Positions 12,346-18,525 of a stretch of 49,494 nucleotides of DNA are shown piece after piece. The stretch's first letter is position 1; every line of letters begins with the position of its first letter. Made by a program: the position numbers and the translations under genes. Location of the stretch: assembly GCA_903913285.1 (NCBI GenBank), contig CAIWKO010000046.1:1-49494 (forward strand), in the 5' to 3' direction. The notes beneath the pieces were generated by a model. The model saw only the letters and a list, made by a program, of their open reading frames with translations, was not told the origin of the DNA and did no database searches. This DNA is from an uncultured Bacteroidales bacterium (GTDB lineage: Bacteria > Bacteroidota > Bacteroidia > Bacteroidales > CAIWKO01).

Positions 12346-13761
12346 CTATATTTGGGTAATACAAATTACTTTGGGCTCTGTCATTTCTTGCAAAGCAAAC
12401 TTAATACCTTCTCTTCCCAGTCCTGAGTTTTTTATTCCACCAAATGGCATCGAATCCAAACGATAATCTGTGGATTCGTTAATCATTACTCCACCACAAT
12501 CCAGCTCATATGCCGCCTTAAAGGCAATATTTATATCCGCTGTAAAAACTCCTGCCAATAATCCATAATTGAGACTGTTCGATTTTTCAATACCTTCCTC
12601 AAGAGTGCTTATTCTGTATAGATTTACAGCCGGTCCGAAGACTTCTTCATAATGTATAGTAGCAGTTTCAGGAACATTTTCCAAAACTGTTGGCTCCATC
12701 AAAGCTCCTGTTCTTTTTCCACCACATAAACATTTTGCACCCATTTCAACAGCTTCCTTAACCCAACGTTCAACCCTGATAGCTTCCTTCTCTGTGATCA
12801 TGGGTCCCATGTCAGTGTCATCCTGCAGTTTGTTACCAATTTTATACTTCAATGTTCTCTCAACAAATTTATCCCTAAAAACATCATAAATTTCGTCATG
12901 AATATAAATTCTTTGAACTCCGATACAATTTTGTCCCGCAGCCCAAAATGCACCCGAAACACATGAATCAACAGCATAATCGATATTGGTATCTTTCCAA
13001 ACAATAACAGGTGAATTGGATCCTAACTCCATTCCAATTTTCTTAATTCCTGCCATAGAAGCAACTTCTTTCCCAGCTTCAACTCCTCCGGTGAACGAAA
13101 CCATCCTTACTCTATCATCTTTTACCAATATCGGCCCAATTTCACTGCCATTTCCTGTAATCACCTGAAGACATTCCGCAGGCAAGCCTGACTCCAGAAA
13201 TGCTTGGGCAAGTTTAATTGCCGATAAAGGAGTTACCGTTGCCGGTTTCAGTATCACACTATTGCCTCCTGCAAAAGCAGGTCCTAATTTATGAGCCACC
13301 AAATTCAACGGATCGTTGAAGGGTGTTATTGCAAGAATAATTCCGATTGGAAAACGGTAATAATATCCGAATTTGTTTTCACCACCTGGAAAAGAATCAA
13401 ACGGAATGGTTTCTCCTTGTATCCTTTTCGATTCTTCAGCCGAAACCCGAAGTGTATTAACGCATCTTCTGGCTTCTTTTCTGGCTTCCTTAATTGTTTT
13501 TGAACCTTCTCTTGCAATAGTAATTGCAAAATCTTCAAGATTCCTTTCAACATACTCAGCAGTTTTAAATAGGATATTTGCCCTTTCGTGCACTTTAAGG
13601 CTTTTTGAAATCTTAAAACCTTTTTCGGCTGATTTTAAAGCTACCAAAGCATCCTCTTTGTCTGCTTTTGGAACAGTGTCAATAACAGAGTTGTCAAATG
13701 GATCATAAACATTGATCTTTTCTTTTTTGTCAATCCATTTTCCATCAATAAACATTTGCAT
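12346..13761 (-). CDS. NAD(P)-dependent aldehyde dehydrogenase (lactaldehyde/GapN-like)
   Basis: The 471-residue protein has the complete ALDH architecture: N149 in AITPFNDPLNLVAHK, the cofactor region LKPATVTPLSAIKLA, general base Glu245 in GMELGSNSP, nucleophile Cys279 in GQNCIG, and the late EEVFGPAV and MPFGGIKNSGLGREG motifs. The FNDPLNLVAHK form is usual in the lactaldehyde / non-phosphorylating glyceraldehyde-3-phosphate dehydrogenase branch. The substrate cannot be fixed by eye. The gene starts 26 bases after pruA, so the two are probably one transcript. It faces the AOR gene, suggesting overlapping aldehyde substrates with different electron acceptors. Confidence 0.9.
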   Translation of the reverse strand: MQMFIDGKWIDKKEKINVYDPFDNSVIDTVPKADKEDALVALKSAEKGFKISKSLKVHERANILFKTAEYVERNLEDFAITIAREGSKTIKEARKEARRCVNTLRVSAEESKRIQGETIPFDSFPGGENKFGYYYRFPIGIILAITPFNDPLNLVAHKLGPAFAGGNSVILKPATVTPLSAIKLAQAFLESGLPAECLQVITGNGSEIGPILVKDDRVRMVSFTGGVEAGKEVASMAGIKKIGMELGSNSPVIVWKDTNIDYAVDSCVSGAFWAAGQNCIGVQRIYIHDEIYDVFRDKFVERTLKYKIGNKLQDDTDMGPMITEKEAIRVERWVKEAVEMGAKCLCGGKRTGALMEPTVLENVPETATIHYEEVFGPAVNLYRISTLEEGIEKSNSLNYGLLAGVFTADINIAFKAAYELDCGGVMINESTDYRLDSMPFGGIKNSGLGREGIKFALQEMTEPKVICITQI

Positions 13762-13787
13762 AAATAAAAGTTTTTTCGGTTAGTAAT

Positions 13788-15416
13788 TTATTTTTCCATA
13801 TAAGGATATTTATAATCAGTTGCAGGCAATAACGTTTCTTTTATAGTACGGGGACTAATCCATCTCAGTAAATTTAAATGACTTCCTGCTTTATCGTTGG
13901 TTCCCGAACAACGTGCACCTCCAAAAGGTTGCTGACCCACCATAGCTCCCGAAGGTTTATCGTTGATATAAAAATTACCGGCCGAATACCTGAGTTTACG
14001 ACATGCAATGCCCATAGCATATTTATCGTTACTAAAAATCGAACCTGTTAATGCATATCGTGATGTTTGATCACAAATCTCGAGTGTTTTTTCAAAGTTT
14101 TTATCCTCGTAAACATAAATGGTCATCACAGGTCCGAATATCTCTTCTTCCATCGTCAAGAAATGTGGATTTTCTGTTTGAATAACCGTTGGTTTTACAA
14201 AGTATCCTTCTCTCTTGTCGCCTGTTCCGCCTGCCAGTATTTTTGCTTCGCTCGAATTTTTCGCTTTTCCGATGTACGACATAATATTGTCGAACGAATT
14301 TTCATCAATTACAGCATTCACAAAATTGTTCAGATCTCTAACATCACCCATTTTTATATCCGAGATCATATCCAGCATTATGTTTTTCGTCTCATTCCAA
14401 ATTGATTTTGGAATATAGGCTCTCGAGGCTGCCGAACATTTTTGTCCCTGATATTCAAATGCACCTCTAACAATGGCTGTTGCCAATTCAAGAGGATTAG
14501 CCGAACTATGAGCAAATATAAAATCTTTACCTCCCGTTTCTCCAACCAGTTTTGGATACGATTTATAATTATGTAGTTTTTCTGTCACTTCATTCCACAA
14601 ATGATCAAAAGTTTGATTCGATCCTGTAAAATGGATTCCTGCCATATCTTTATGATTCAATACAACGTCGCTGATTAACGAACCACTGCCAGGTACAAAA
14701 TTTATGACTCCATCAGGCAATCCTGCTTCCTTAAATACTTTCATCAGATAATAATTTGAAAGCAGCGAGGTTGTGGCTGGCTTCCATACTGTGGTATTTC
14801 CCATCAAGGCAACACAAGTGTTAAGATTTGATGCTATTGCTGTAAAATTAAACGGAGTGATCGTATATATAAAACCTTCCAGCGGTCTATATTCCAATCT
14901 GTTTATTGAATAATTATCCGAATGGGGTTGCTCTTTATAGATCAGCGAAGCAAAATGAACATTGAACCTCAAATAATCTATCACTTCACAAGCAGCATCT
15001 ATTTCAGCCTGAAATACATTCTTACCTTGGCCTAACATGGTAGCGGCGTTAATTACATACCTATATTTTGTTGAAAGCAGATCCGCTGCTTTCAACAAAA
15101 TAGATGATCGGTCTATCCACGATAAGTTCATCCAACATTCCTTTGCCTCCAACGCACTTTTTATTGCCAGTTGCACTTCCTTATCAGTAGCCATATGATA
15201 TTCTGCTAAAACATGTCCATGAGCATGTGGCATCACGACCTTTCCTGTTTTACCGGTTCTAATCTCTTTGCCACCAATAATCAAGGGTATTTCTATTTTT
15301 TCAGAAGCCTGTTTTTTAAGTTCTTTTTCTAGCTCAACTCGTTCCTTACTTCCTTTCATATAAGGCAATATTGCCTCATTTTGTGGGTTCTCAAATACAA
15401 AGACTGCGTTATTCAT
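13788..15416 (-). CDS. pruA: 1-pyrroline-5-carboxylate dehydrogenase
   Basis: This enzyme oxidises glutamate semialdehyde / pyrroline-5-carboxylate to glutamate with NAD, the second step of proline catabolism, and also links ornithine to glutamate. The 542 residues fit the single-domain (eukaryote-like) P5CDH group. Key motifs are TPFNFTAIASNL, WKPATTSLLSNY, the base in VGETGGKDF, the nucleophile in YQGQKCSAASR, EEEIFGPVMTIYVY, and QPFGGARCSGTNDKAG near the end. No proline dehydrogenase is adjacent. It is first in a probable two-gene operon with an aldehyde dehydrogenase, and a TACTTTTG box lies 62 bases upstream. Confidence 0.94.
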   Translation of the reverse strand: MNNAVFVFENPQNEAILPYMKGSKERVELEKELKKQASEKIEIPLIIGGKEIRTGKTGKVVMPHAHGHVLAEYHMATDKEVQLAIKSALEAKECWMNLSWIDRSSILLKAADLLSTKYRYVINAATMLGQGKNVFQAEIDAACEVIDYLRFNVHFASLIYKEQPHSDNYSINRLEYRPLEGFIYTITPFNFTAIASNLNTCVALMGNTTVWKPATTSLLSNYYLMKVFKEAGLPDGVINFVPGSGSLISDVVLNHKDMAGIHFTGSNQTFDHLWNEVTEKLHNYKSYPKLVGETGGKDFIFAHSSANPLELATAIVRGAFEYQGQKCSAASRAYIPKSIWNETKNIMLDMISDIKMGDVRDLNNFVNAVIDENSFDNIMSYIGKAKNSSEAKILAGGTGDKREGYFVKPTVIQTENPHFLTMEEEIFGPVMTIYVYEDKNFEKTLEICDQTSRYALTGSIFSNDKYAMGIACRKLRYSAGNFYINDKPSGAMVGQQPFGGARCSGTNDKAGSHLNLLRWISPRTIKETLLPATDYKYPYMEK

Positions 15417-15485: not shown

Positions 15486-15608
15486 ATTATTTTTTCAAAA
15501 TTCTTTGAAAAAATCCTTTTTATAAAATTACGATATTTTTAGTGGGAAAACAAGTTTATTTATAAATATTCCAAATAAACTTGTTACTTTTTGGATTTTG
15601 CAGAGTAA

Positions 15609-16706
15609 TTATTTCGTATTTTTATCGGGCACCAATTCCTTATATTTTTTCCAGAAAGTCCACATGGCTTCCGAACGGGCATCCGATTGCAACGATGTGA
15701 TAATGTTTTTTTCCGTTTGTTTAATATTTAATATCAATACATCAAGATATGCCAAGTCATTAATAAGCATGGTATGAGAAAATAAAGACATTTCCCATTT
15801 AACTTTTTCTCCGGTCTTTATGTTCTTGGTATCAGCAAAATTCATCGGTATAAATAGCTGAGAAGCTGCTTCTGGATTAATTATTGCTTTTATCGAATCG
15901 TTCATGGCTAACATTCGTTTTTTTATCTCAAATGCTTTGGCTTTGGTAACATCCTCTGTTTTTCCAACAAAATAAGCAGTGGGTTCCTTAAAATTATCCC
16001 TCTCAGAAAGTTCGTCCAAATTCAGTTTCTTCCAGTCGTCTTCTTTTTTTGTAAGTTGCGTAACTTCGGTTTTACAATTATTCAGGAAATCGATCAGGCT
16101 ATCGCTCAAATGTTTTATTTTTACGGCTTTCGAGTATTTGGTTGAAAATTGAGCAGGAAACTGGCTTTTATTCAGATCGAAGTCGGTCATCAAACGAAGC
16201 ATAGAACTATCTGCTGATGCCGTCATGGTTCGCACCTGAATATCCGAATTTGAAATAGCTTCAAATATCTTATTGCTCATATTACGGTTCCCGTATGCAA
16301 AAACAAGAGCCAAAATAATCACGGGAGTAACAACCTTCCCAATTGCACTTTTTTCAGGATATTTTTTCCTTACAATGCTGTATTTTATCGGTAAATACCC
16401 CAACACAAAAAGAATAAGCCCGATTGCCTGCAAAATAATTGCTAAGGGATAATGCAATACTCCGAACATAATTCCAAATGCCAACCAAAAATAGGCAACA
16501 TTTTTAATAATATGCATCACCTTTTCCAATCCTTGAGAATCTTTTGCTTTCAAGATAGTGGAAAAAACCAAAAAGAGGGTGAGCATAACGCTTATACCAA
16601 ATATCAGCATGATATTTGCTCCCGGAAAATGCCAGGTTTTACAAATAACTCCTGCTACTATTATTAATGCAGTCAGGATTCCGATTGTTTCAGTTGTTTT
16701 TTTCAT
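15609..16706 (-). CDS. GldL-like membrane hairpins joined to a GldM-like periplasmic domain
   Basis: The first 150 residues are membrane segments. The first pair (about 8-50) carries CKTWHFPGANIML, which resembles the GldL signature FK-x-x-H-x-PGA with Lys23 and His26 kept. A second similar hairpin (GVLHYPLAIILQAIGL) follows near residue 82. After a last membrane segment (about 128-144) comes an extracytoplasmic helical domain to the end. Its pattern, including KWEMSLFSHTMLINDLAYLD followed by a helix with a Lys-Thr-Glu, resembles the N-terminal domain of GldM. In T9SS, GldL and GldM are separate proteins forming a proton-driven motor; here similar parts seem to be in one chain. The membrane Glu of GldL has no equivalent. 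The gene starts 18 bases after a cupin gene. Function is inferred only. Confidence 0.6.
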   Translation of the reverse strand: MKKTTETIGILTALIIVAGVICKTWHFPGANIMLIFGISVMLTLFLVFSTILKAKDSQGLEKVMHIIKNVAYFWLAFGIMFGVLHYPLAIILQAIGLILFVLGYLPIKYSIVRKKYPEKSAIGKVVTPVIILALVFAYGNRNMSNKIFEAISNSDIQVRTMTASADSSMLRLMTDFDLNKSQFPAQFSTKYSKAVKIKHLSDSLIDFLNNCKTEVTQLTKKEDDWKKLNLDELSERDNFKEPTAYFVGKTEDVTKAKAFEIKKRMLAMNDSIKAIINPEAASQLFIPMNFADTKNIKTGEKVKWEMSLFSHTMLINDLAYLDVLILNIKQTEKNIITSLQSDARSEAMWTFWKKYKELVPDKNTK

Positions 16707-16724: not shown

Positions 16725-17054
16725 TTAACTTTTGATCATGGTTAGTACCATTTTGAATTTTTCGGAAGCTTGCAATGCATGAGGGATATTGGCAGGCATG
16801 ATAATACTTTGCCCGGCATGCAAAAGGTGCGGAATTTTGTTGATAAAAATTTCAGCACTTCCATCCACTATCATCACCATGGCATCGAAAGGGGCTGTAT
16901 GTTCGCTCAGACCTTCACCTTTATCGAATGCAAAAACCGTTACAGTGCCGGTTTGTTTTTTTATAATAGTGCGGCTCACCACGGCTCCGGGAGCATAATC
17001 TACAATTTCTGAAAACTGAAAAGTTTGTGCGCGTTCAAATTCGTTCGTTTCCAT
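16725..17054 (-). CDS. Small cupin-domain protein
   Basis: The 109 residues form a single cupin_2 barrel. The first motif, EHTAPFDAMVMIVDGSAEIF, keeps only part of the usual G-x5-H-x-H-x3,4-E-x6-G: one His (EHTAPF), Asp in place of the Glu, and the closing G. The second motif is GQSIIMPANIPHALQA, with the usual Pro and His. Metal binding is therefore uncertain. Such proteins are stand-alone cytoplasmic cupins, often in stress or anaerobic gene settings, with no assigned reaction. The gene ends 18 bases before the GldL/GldM-like gene, suggesting a shared transcript. A TATTTTTG box (plus-strand 17082-17089) lies upstream. Confidence 0.85.
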   Translation of the reverse strand: METNEFERAQTFQFSEIVDYAPGAVVSRTIIKKQTGTVTVFAFDKGEGLSEHTAPFDAMVMIVDGSAEIFINKIPHLLHAGQSIIMPANIPHALQASEKFKMVLTMIKS

Positions 17055-17800: not shown

Positions 17801-17934
17801 ATAAAATTAGCGATTAGCGATTGGATTGCCAACAGCCATGAGCCATGAGCCATGATTTGCTGGTCTGACAAAAATACTAATCTTAAGGCGAAATGCAAAA
17901 TTTTCATGTGGAAGATGGGGTTTGTTTGTTTGGT

Positions 17935-18525
17935 GGGTTTGTTGTTTTGGGTTTTGGGAGGTTTTTTGTTTTTGATTGCGAGGTTTGTTTTTTGACTGTG
18001 TAAGTTGTTTTTGCTTGCGCGAAACTTGTTTTTGCTTCTGCGTTGTTTGTTTTTGCATTTGCGTTGTTTGTTTGAGCATTTGCGTTGAATATTTGTTGAT
18101 TTTTCGAAGTTATTTATTGGAATGTTTTGTTTGTTTTTGGGCCTGCGAAGCTTGTTTTTGGAGGTGCGAAACATATTTTTTGAATTGCGTAGTTTTTTTT
18201 GGGTTTTGCGAGGCTTGTTTTTTGAATTGCGAAGCTTGTTTTTGGAGATGTTAAGGTGCCAAAATGGTGATGTGTTGTTTGTTTTTGGTCATGTTTTGTT
18301 TGTTTGAGCTAAAGTGCCGCTTGTTTTTGGCATGTTTTGGTTGTTTTTTGGGGATGTTAGGTTGTTTTTGAGCCGTGTGACGTTGTTTTTTGGGTATGTT
18401 GTTTGTTTTTTGACTGTTGTTTTGAATTATAACCATGTTGTTTTGATTTTTGAATGTTATTTTATGTTTTTTTGGTGTGTTGTATATTTTTTGGCTGTGT
18501 AACTTGTTTTTTGAGTGAGAAGATT
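17935..18525. repeat. G/T-rich 21-nt minisatellite
   Basis: The plus strand is almost free of C and A and repeats the unit GCGAAGCTTGTTTTTGGATTT, loosely conserved, about 28 times. The GCG anchors fall at 18019, 18040, 18061 and 18082, then at 18145, 18166, 18187, 18208 and 18229, exactly 21 bases apart. The right half is more eroded (for example GTGTAACTTGTTTTTTGAG). Because 21 is a multiple of three, several frames stay open and give heptad-like peptides (Lys/Gln/Asn-rich on the minus strand, Cys/Phe-rich on the plus), but none has a convincing start or composition. There are no unique spacers, so it is not CRISPR. It fills most of a 1.08-kb gene-free gap. Confidence 0.85.

Follow-up and report, generated by a model that had tools for sequence, protein, structure and literature searches.

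A single reading frame in the DNA analysed here, a stretch of 49,494 nucleotides from an uncultured Bacteroidales bacterium (the window), raises the question of whether parts of the T9SS motor proteins GldL and GldM have been joined in one chain and, if so, what such a chain would do. A preliminary description had proposed this combination from the letters alone. The frame lies on the minus strand (16706..15609), opens with ATG, encodes 365 amino acids and contains the following features.

15609..16706, minus strand: GldL/GldM fusion protein (the target), 365 amino acids, without a cytoplasmic output domain; identified by open reading frame, Pfam, PDB profile and full-length orthologues at loci L005 and L006
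16539..16700, minus strand: GldL-like hairpin 1 (residues 3-56), bearing K23-x-x-H26-x-P28-G-A; GldL_N match and GldL-only hairpin model
16584..16586, minus strand: codon of Met41, at the site of the proton-carrying Glu of GldL (Lys+18), assigned by sequence position
16362..16529, minus strand: GldL-like hairpin 2 (residues 60-115), with HYP and the motif Lys lost; alignment, family hairpin model and GldL-only model
16284..16352, minus strand: fifth membrane helix (residues 119-141), GldM-like, with K124 at the GldM Arg position; hydropathy and offset to Asn142
15684..16235, minus strand: GldM first periplasmic domain (residues 158-341); PF12081

The motifs that had first drawn attention to the frame were found where they had been placed: K23 and H26 within CKTWHFPGA, H85-Y86-P87, W304-E305 and T331-E-K-N-I335. 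Hydropathy predicts membrane segments at residues 3-28, 29-55, 66-84, 85-109 and 119-140 and none past the GldM domain; an alternative setting gives four segments, not five. In a low-quality AlphaFold2 model the helices of hairpin 1 span residues 2-24 and 30-56. Downstream of residue 56 there follows a second hairpin and then the GldM domain, not a long cytoplasmic region of the GldL type, and the chain stops at residue 365 without GldM domains 2-4 and without the GldL cytoplasmic tail. The chain is inferred to comprise two hairpins and a fifth helix, and its C-terminal end would be periplasmic if the topology of GldM applies.

For the GldM half, the Pfam model GldM_1st (PF12081) covers residues 158-341 and scores 49.4 bits (E 7.4e-13), its cut-off being 25. 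GldL_N matches residues 12-55 with E 6.4e-4, its 20.3 bits falling just under the cut-off of 24, and the target does not meet the full-length NCBIfam models (TIGR03517, 34.8 of 180 bits; TIGR03513, 6.2 of 68.3 bits). By phmmer against the PDB, GldM (7sau_A) is reached with E 1.4e-10 and GldL (7sau_C) with E 0.22. On the single sequence the GldL half is weak or sub-threshold; further comparisons at the level of sequence support its homology to GldL. A profile of 13 family members, searched against all PDB chains, finds GldM best (E 5.4e-30) and eight GldM/PorM sequences in all, and the same profile finds GldL more weakly (E 2.6e-4, 2.2e-3 and 0.014), the top unrelated chain standing at 0.013. 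A hairpin model made from 31 canonical GldL only matches hairpin 1 of the target with an i-E of 1.2e-4 and hairpin 2 with 0.11, and gives an i-E below 0.01 in 73 of the 80 collected family members. These 80 proteins contain 150 occurrences of the K..H.P motif, compared with 0.95 in shuffles. When the family's own hairpins were made into a model and this was applied to the non-family genes of the loci, 31 of 1230 distinct genes matched; read by eye, these are 28 canonical GldL and three apparently partial or short family members. With GldM_1st over its cut-off, GldL_N just below and the family profile matching both, the resemblance of the target to GldL and GldM exceeds chance, and the original observation of GldL-like hairpins and a GldM-like domain in one protein is confirmed as far as sequence goes.

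Structure comparison carries no weight in these conclusions, the quality of the model being too low. AlphaFold2, run with only three sequences (the target and its orthologues at L005 and L006), gave a poor model with a mean pLDDT of 50 and a pTM of 0.32, and a Foldseek search with it returned nothing at E <= 0.001. The non-significant Foldseek list includes GldM 6ys8_B (probability 0.57, E 0.96) and GldL 7sau_E (probability 0.91, 1.3 A over 48 columns, E 4.9). VIA-align with the same model gave Z 7.3 for GldL 7sau_E and 6.5 for GldM 7sb2_B and 7sax_A, with several unrelated helical chains scoring higher.

Whether the fused chain could still act as a motor turns on its membrane residues. As far as the accessible parts of the two papers go, Glu49 of GldL is reported as strictly conserved and required for secretion, that of SprB being abolished in E49A (PMC8986121), and E49Q and E49D are dead while Y13A and K27A are weakened (PMC9127263). 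All 32 canonical GldL of related genomes carry an acid after the motif Lys, at +18 in 27, +22 in four and +20 in one. In the target, Lys+18 is Met41, at the TM2 Glu site of those 27; the earlier reading of a Met at the Glu position, with Lys23 and His26 kept, was thus accurate. None of the 150 K..H.P-bearing hairpins in 80 family proteins has an Asp or Glu at Lys+18. A motor with a relocated acid was sought as an Asp or Glu anywhere from Lys+14 to Lys+24 and was rejected: only three of the 150 hairpins have one (L066, L060 and L055), and none is in the trio formed by the target and its two orthologues. Hairpins in which the motif is incomplete, among them the second hairpin of the target, are outside this count; residues 62 to 117 of the target contain no Asp or Glu, and in its first 141 residues the acids are limited to E6, D56, E61 and E118, each close to or at the end of a helix. 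The basic residues of the motif are retained across the family, Lys at the Lys23 site in 76 of 80 proteins and His at the His26 site in 73 of 80. In the motor, an Arg of GldM pairs with the GldL Glu. This Arg stands 18 residues ahead of a helix-ending Asn in 32 of 32 canonical GldM, and in the target the position is occupied by Lys124. The site was counted by a text pattern that included wrong places in the relatives, and only its values in the target and in the canonical proteins are used.

The target had been taken for a stand-alone protein; it is instead a member of a widespread Bacteroidota family, whose defining features it has: two K/H hairpins near residues 23 and 83, a fifth helix, the GldM first domain and no motor Glu. 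A search of genome contigs with the single sequence found the two orthologues, full length, at 50% (L005) and 47% (L006) identity, and across 295 genomes of the order it found canonical GldM and some full-length matches at about 25% identity. Phylum-wide, the single sequence gave matches in only 10 of 395 genomes, and a profile was needed. With the 13-member profile, a fused member was found in at least 39 of 393 genomes of the order (five candidates were scored per genome, so the count is a lower bound), and the same kind of search was extended to an additional 395 genomes from the class. In all, 118 distinct sequences were collected by a profile match from the membrane part, of which 91 have a complete GldM domain by profile. 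They fall into five architectures.

Architecture A: free-standing proteins of about 330-400 amino acids, such as the target
Architecture B: tandem genes
Architecture C: single proteins of about 390-460 amino acids with an 80-residue cytoplasmic N-terminal domain
Architecture D: hairpin-only proteins
Architecture E: long proteins with an enzyme behind a further membrane helix, such as L068 and L058

No published description of a GldL-GldM fusion family was found in the literature searched, which did not cover most subscription journals, and the word 'fused' does not occur in a review of 5:2 motors (PMC9389320).

The long proteins link the module to signalling enzymes directly. L068 combines GldM_1st (E 3.4e-20) with SpoIIE (E 1.6e-17). 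The search of the class yielded eight new reading frames of more than 600 amino acids; the seven scanned with Pfam (L171-L177; the eighth, L178, was outside the scan) all have GldM_1st and SpoIIE over their cut-offs, with GldL_N over its cut-off in three, bringing the scanned SpoIIE-fused members to eight. One member, L058, is fused to a histidine kinase (HisKA/HATPase). GldM_1st and GldL_N are not among its listed Pfam matches, and its module was recognised by the family profile, in which the front part of L058 is itself one row. Compared with membrane-bound SpoIIE (PP2C) phosphatases and sensor histidine kinases, these relatives carry the module ahead of a further membrane helix and the SpoIIE or kinase domain, whereas the target ends after the periplasmic domain.

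Other relatives are linked to regulators through their neighbours. The gene directly upstream is a PadR gene in 55 of the 59 members that carry the 80-residue cytoplasmic N-terminal (DHxC-type) domain, and a PadR gene lies two genes upstream of the second gene in all 23 tandem pairs; within two genes, it is found beside none of 32 members without the domain (those not second of a pair and with the upstream gene in view). The domain-bearing set was defined by a first hairpin starting at residue 95 or later, which gave 61 proteins, and was reduced to 59 by removal of L115 and of the 300-residue L123 protein, which by eye lack the domain. Sorting by the DHxCC text motif instead gives a PadR gene directly upstream in 45 of 47, with 10 further PadR neighbours of proteins without the exact motif. 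The four exceptions to adjacency are L050, where the next upstream gene is in the PadR cluster but, as read, more than 200 bp distant, L190, where PadR is one gene further away, L143, where the upstream gene is out of view, and L161, where none was seen. PadR identity rests on Pfam in two scanned neighbours, the others having been called by similarity to one of these. Two free-standing members also have a suggestive neighbour: at L046 a SpoIIE protein with a membrane anchor (E 7.1e-19) is encoded 3 nt downstream, and at L126 an AraC/GyrI regulator 10 nt downstream. No signalling partner was found among the neighbours of four other free-standing members, at L187 (outer-membrane receptor), L180 (DUF349), L186 (thymidylate synthase) and L039 (without a Pfam match); at L039:2686-5170 the fusion gene overlaps a 461-residue gene, itself without any Pfam match, by 8 nt. 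Beside a further free-standing member, an opposite-strand gene (L131:6253-7479) carries GAF and a sub-cut-off HAMP match.

The PadR linkage recalls HAAS-PadR, described in PMC11237479 as a two-component alternative in which HAAS is always beside PadR and is fused to various membrane domains, some of them uncharacterised; neither 'Gld' nor 'gliding' occurs in that paper. The likeness consists of a cytoplasmic N-terminal domain ahead of the membrane part of the relatives and an upstream PadR gene, and the target differs in having neither a HAAS domain nor a neighbouring PadR. Identification of the N-terminal domain as HAAS itself was rejected: when 26 members were scanned with Pfam, none of the best 25 of 31 weak families matched more than two of them, and neither HAAS nor DUF1700 was among these 25. 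A PDB profile search with the domain found nothing under 0.7. It is HAAS-like by context alone, that is, by the adjoining PadR gene.

The tandem pairs invite comparison with the architecture of the GldLM motor. In 23 of 23 distinct pairs, drawn from 16 family-level groups as read from genome tables, the family hairpin model finds three hairpins in the first gene and two in the second; by hydropathy, 17 of the 23 have seven and five membrane helices and the other six deviate by one or two. The pairs share ancestry and hence are not 23 independent events. Among 72 unpaired members the same model finds two hairpins in 59, one in five, three in five and none in three. At L072 and L073 (340+147 and 337+147 amino acids) the GldM domain is lost and the three and two hairpins are retained. 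In the parts available of PMC8986121 and PMC9389320, GldLM is described as five GldL hairpins ringing two GldM helices. The pairs total five hairpins per two chains, equal to the 5:2 ratio of the motor, while the target has two hairpins per chain. The sequences themselves give only the five-fold total; assembly of the pairs into a 5:2 ring is hypothetical. The family is like the GldLM/PorLM motor in its K..H.P hairpins, GldM helix ending (N..S), GldM first domain and, in the pairs, five hairpins per two chains; it differs in being fused in one chain, in lacking the motor Glu, GldM domains 2-4 and the GldL tail, and in having its gene apart from gldL and gldM.

Given these links, it is suggested that the target is probably a motor-dead derivative of GldLM which serves as a membrane sensor or regulator, its sensing, assembly and contact with a partner being inferred. 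Comparison of genes and proteins establishes the fusion of parts, the loss of the motor acid, the absence of the lever domains and tail, and the repeated linkage of the module to signalling proteins. The relatives, with SpoIIE, histidine kinase and PadR partners, point to the non-motor sensor role that had been raised in the preliminary description. In such a protein the N-terminus would be cytoplasmic and be followed by four helices and a fifth leading into the periplasm, and the chain would dimerise via the GldM domain. The module may sense the state of the membrane or of the membrane-near periplasm, upon which its helices would shift, and in the relatives this shift would be relayed to a partner that is fused (SpoIIE phosphatase, histidine kinase) or encoded by a neighbour (PadR, a separate SpoIIE, AraC/GyrI). 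The target would act in trans, its likeliest partner being either the cupin probably transcribed with it or an output protein from another locus. According to the part of PMC8986121 available, the proton gradient and GldL alter the periplasmic shape of GldM; a sensor could use such coupling in either direction. Several points stand against the sensor reading: the target lacks both an output domain and a PadR neighbour; its sole linked gene is a cupin mostly found without the fusion; four free-standing members have no signalling neighbour; K124 is still basic; one hydropathy setting gives only four helices; the GldM-domain tree is unsettled; and there is neither a structure of useful quality nor an experiment. 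A more specific version is put forward only tentatively, and it may well be wrong: Bacteroidota would have converted their secretion motor into a sensor family, the fused units without Glu would feed SpoIIE, kinases and PadR, the tandem pairs would form a covalent, non-turning wheel of five hairpins and two axles that retains the 5:2 plan of the motor, and the target would be the minimal free-standing form, acting on the cupin. If the sensor reading is true, the family would show how a motor turns into a sensor, GldLM being among the few known proton-driven rotary machines; its members would be natural controls without the Glu for studying the motor mechanism, and the division into three and two hairpins would allow the 5:2 ratio to be tested where it is genetically fixed.

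It is possible that the target acts on the T9SS motor of its own cell, joining or blocking GldL and GldM as a scaffold or modulator and so tuning their number or activity. The genome (4.0 Mb) does contain canonical gldL and gldM, preceded by a gene taken by eye as gldK, and at E <= 0.001 the GldL_N and GldM_1st models each match two of its genes, one being the target and the other the canonical gene. Furthermore, the GldM domain of the target is about as near to canonical GldM as to the signalling relatives. In the GldM-domain tree the trio is firmly one group; an AU test rejected neither its placement with the fused signalling relatives nor that with canonical GldM (p 0.73 and 0.85), and a FastTree run placed it with canonical GldM (0.918). 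The AU test was rough, using a quick search and a subset of 64, and the tested clades scored a better likelihood than the free tree; the FastTree set comprised 91 family members and 32 canonical sequences, the other 27 of the 118 collected sequences, which have no complete GldM domain, being left out. The tree thus does not settle whether the trio arose by the same fusion as its relatives or by a separate one, and a single origin is inferred because the layout, with hairpin Lys sites at residues 23 and 82-83, is common to the target and the relatives. However, modulation of the motor is considered unlikely: the target has neither the GldL tail nor the GldM domains extending to the ring in the outer membrane, its gene and gldL/gldM are on different contigs (C46 and C68), and many family members are linked to regulators.

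The sensor reading leaves the target in need of a partner, for which the adjoining cupin is the local candidate.

16725..17054, minus strand: cupin protein, 109 amino acids, 18 bp upstream of the fusion gene; Pfam Cupin_2, E 3.9e-8
15549..15585, no strand assigned: perfect 13-nt inverted repeat with an 11-nt loop, in the gap that separates the fusion gene from the downstream aldehyde dehydrogenase gene; a possible terminator

The cupin is a probable operon partner of the fusion. The orthologue search that had been proposed found the same pair at L005 and L006, both with a gap of 14 bp, while five other window neighbours that were compared have no match in these loci. These are two independent orthologues, genomes G152 and G295 being apparently the same records as L005 and L006, respectively. 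The partnership envisaged for the cupin stands for one genus, in which three of the four genomes of the target's taxonomic family have the pair, but it does not extend further: of 295 genomes from the order, 114 have the cupin, many of them without an adjoining fusion. As a general partner it was rejected, a fusion-family gene adjoining it in three of 32 cupin loci, all of the target's genus (three genomes are counted twice, and most loci show 1.5 kb per side). Elsewhere in the order the same cupin was seen with a Prismane (hybrid-cluster type) protein (L088:2-1399), an MFS transporter (L098:1840-3222) and, at L084, an NTPase_1 protein.

The same loci bear on whether the gene is merely a leftover fusion without a present role. 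In the fourth genome of the genus, G246 (93% complete), the cupin is present without a fusion beside it and the fusion was not found, and within the pair the fusion has diverged fast, to 47-50% identity against 86-87% for the adjoining cupin. Nevertheless, a leftover is very unlikely. Between L005 and L006 the fusion has a dN of 0.106 and a dS of 0.379, a ratio of about 0.28, and the cupin a dN of 0.022 and a dS of 0.446, so that both appear to evolve as under purifying selection; the full-length frame is intact in three of four genomes, and the 14-18 bp spacing from the cupin is kept although the other compared neighbours differ. Least credible is an ion-driven motor that uses other residues, such as Lys23, His26 or Lys124, to drive inner-membrane-proximal movement: the near-constant Lys23 and His26 sites and the helix charge retained by K124 are in its favour, but the acid is missing from the motor position in every motif-bearing hairpin, 5:2 motors are said, in the portion of PMC8986121 available, to depend on a conserved acidic membrane-helix residue, and the lever domains are absent.

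Around the locus, two consecutive aldehyde dehydrogenase genes lie on the same strand downstream of the fusion (window 12346-15416), and degenerate tandem repeats of about 21 bp occupy 17918-18514, with UPF0029 and gyrB/parE-like genes on either side.
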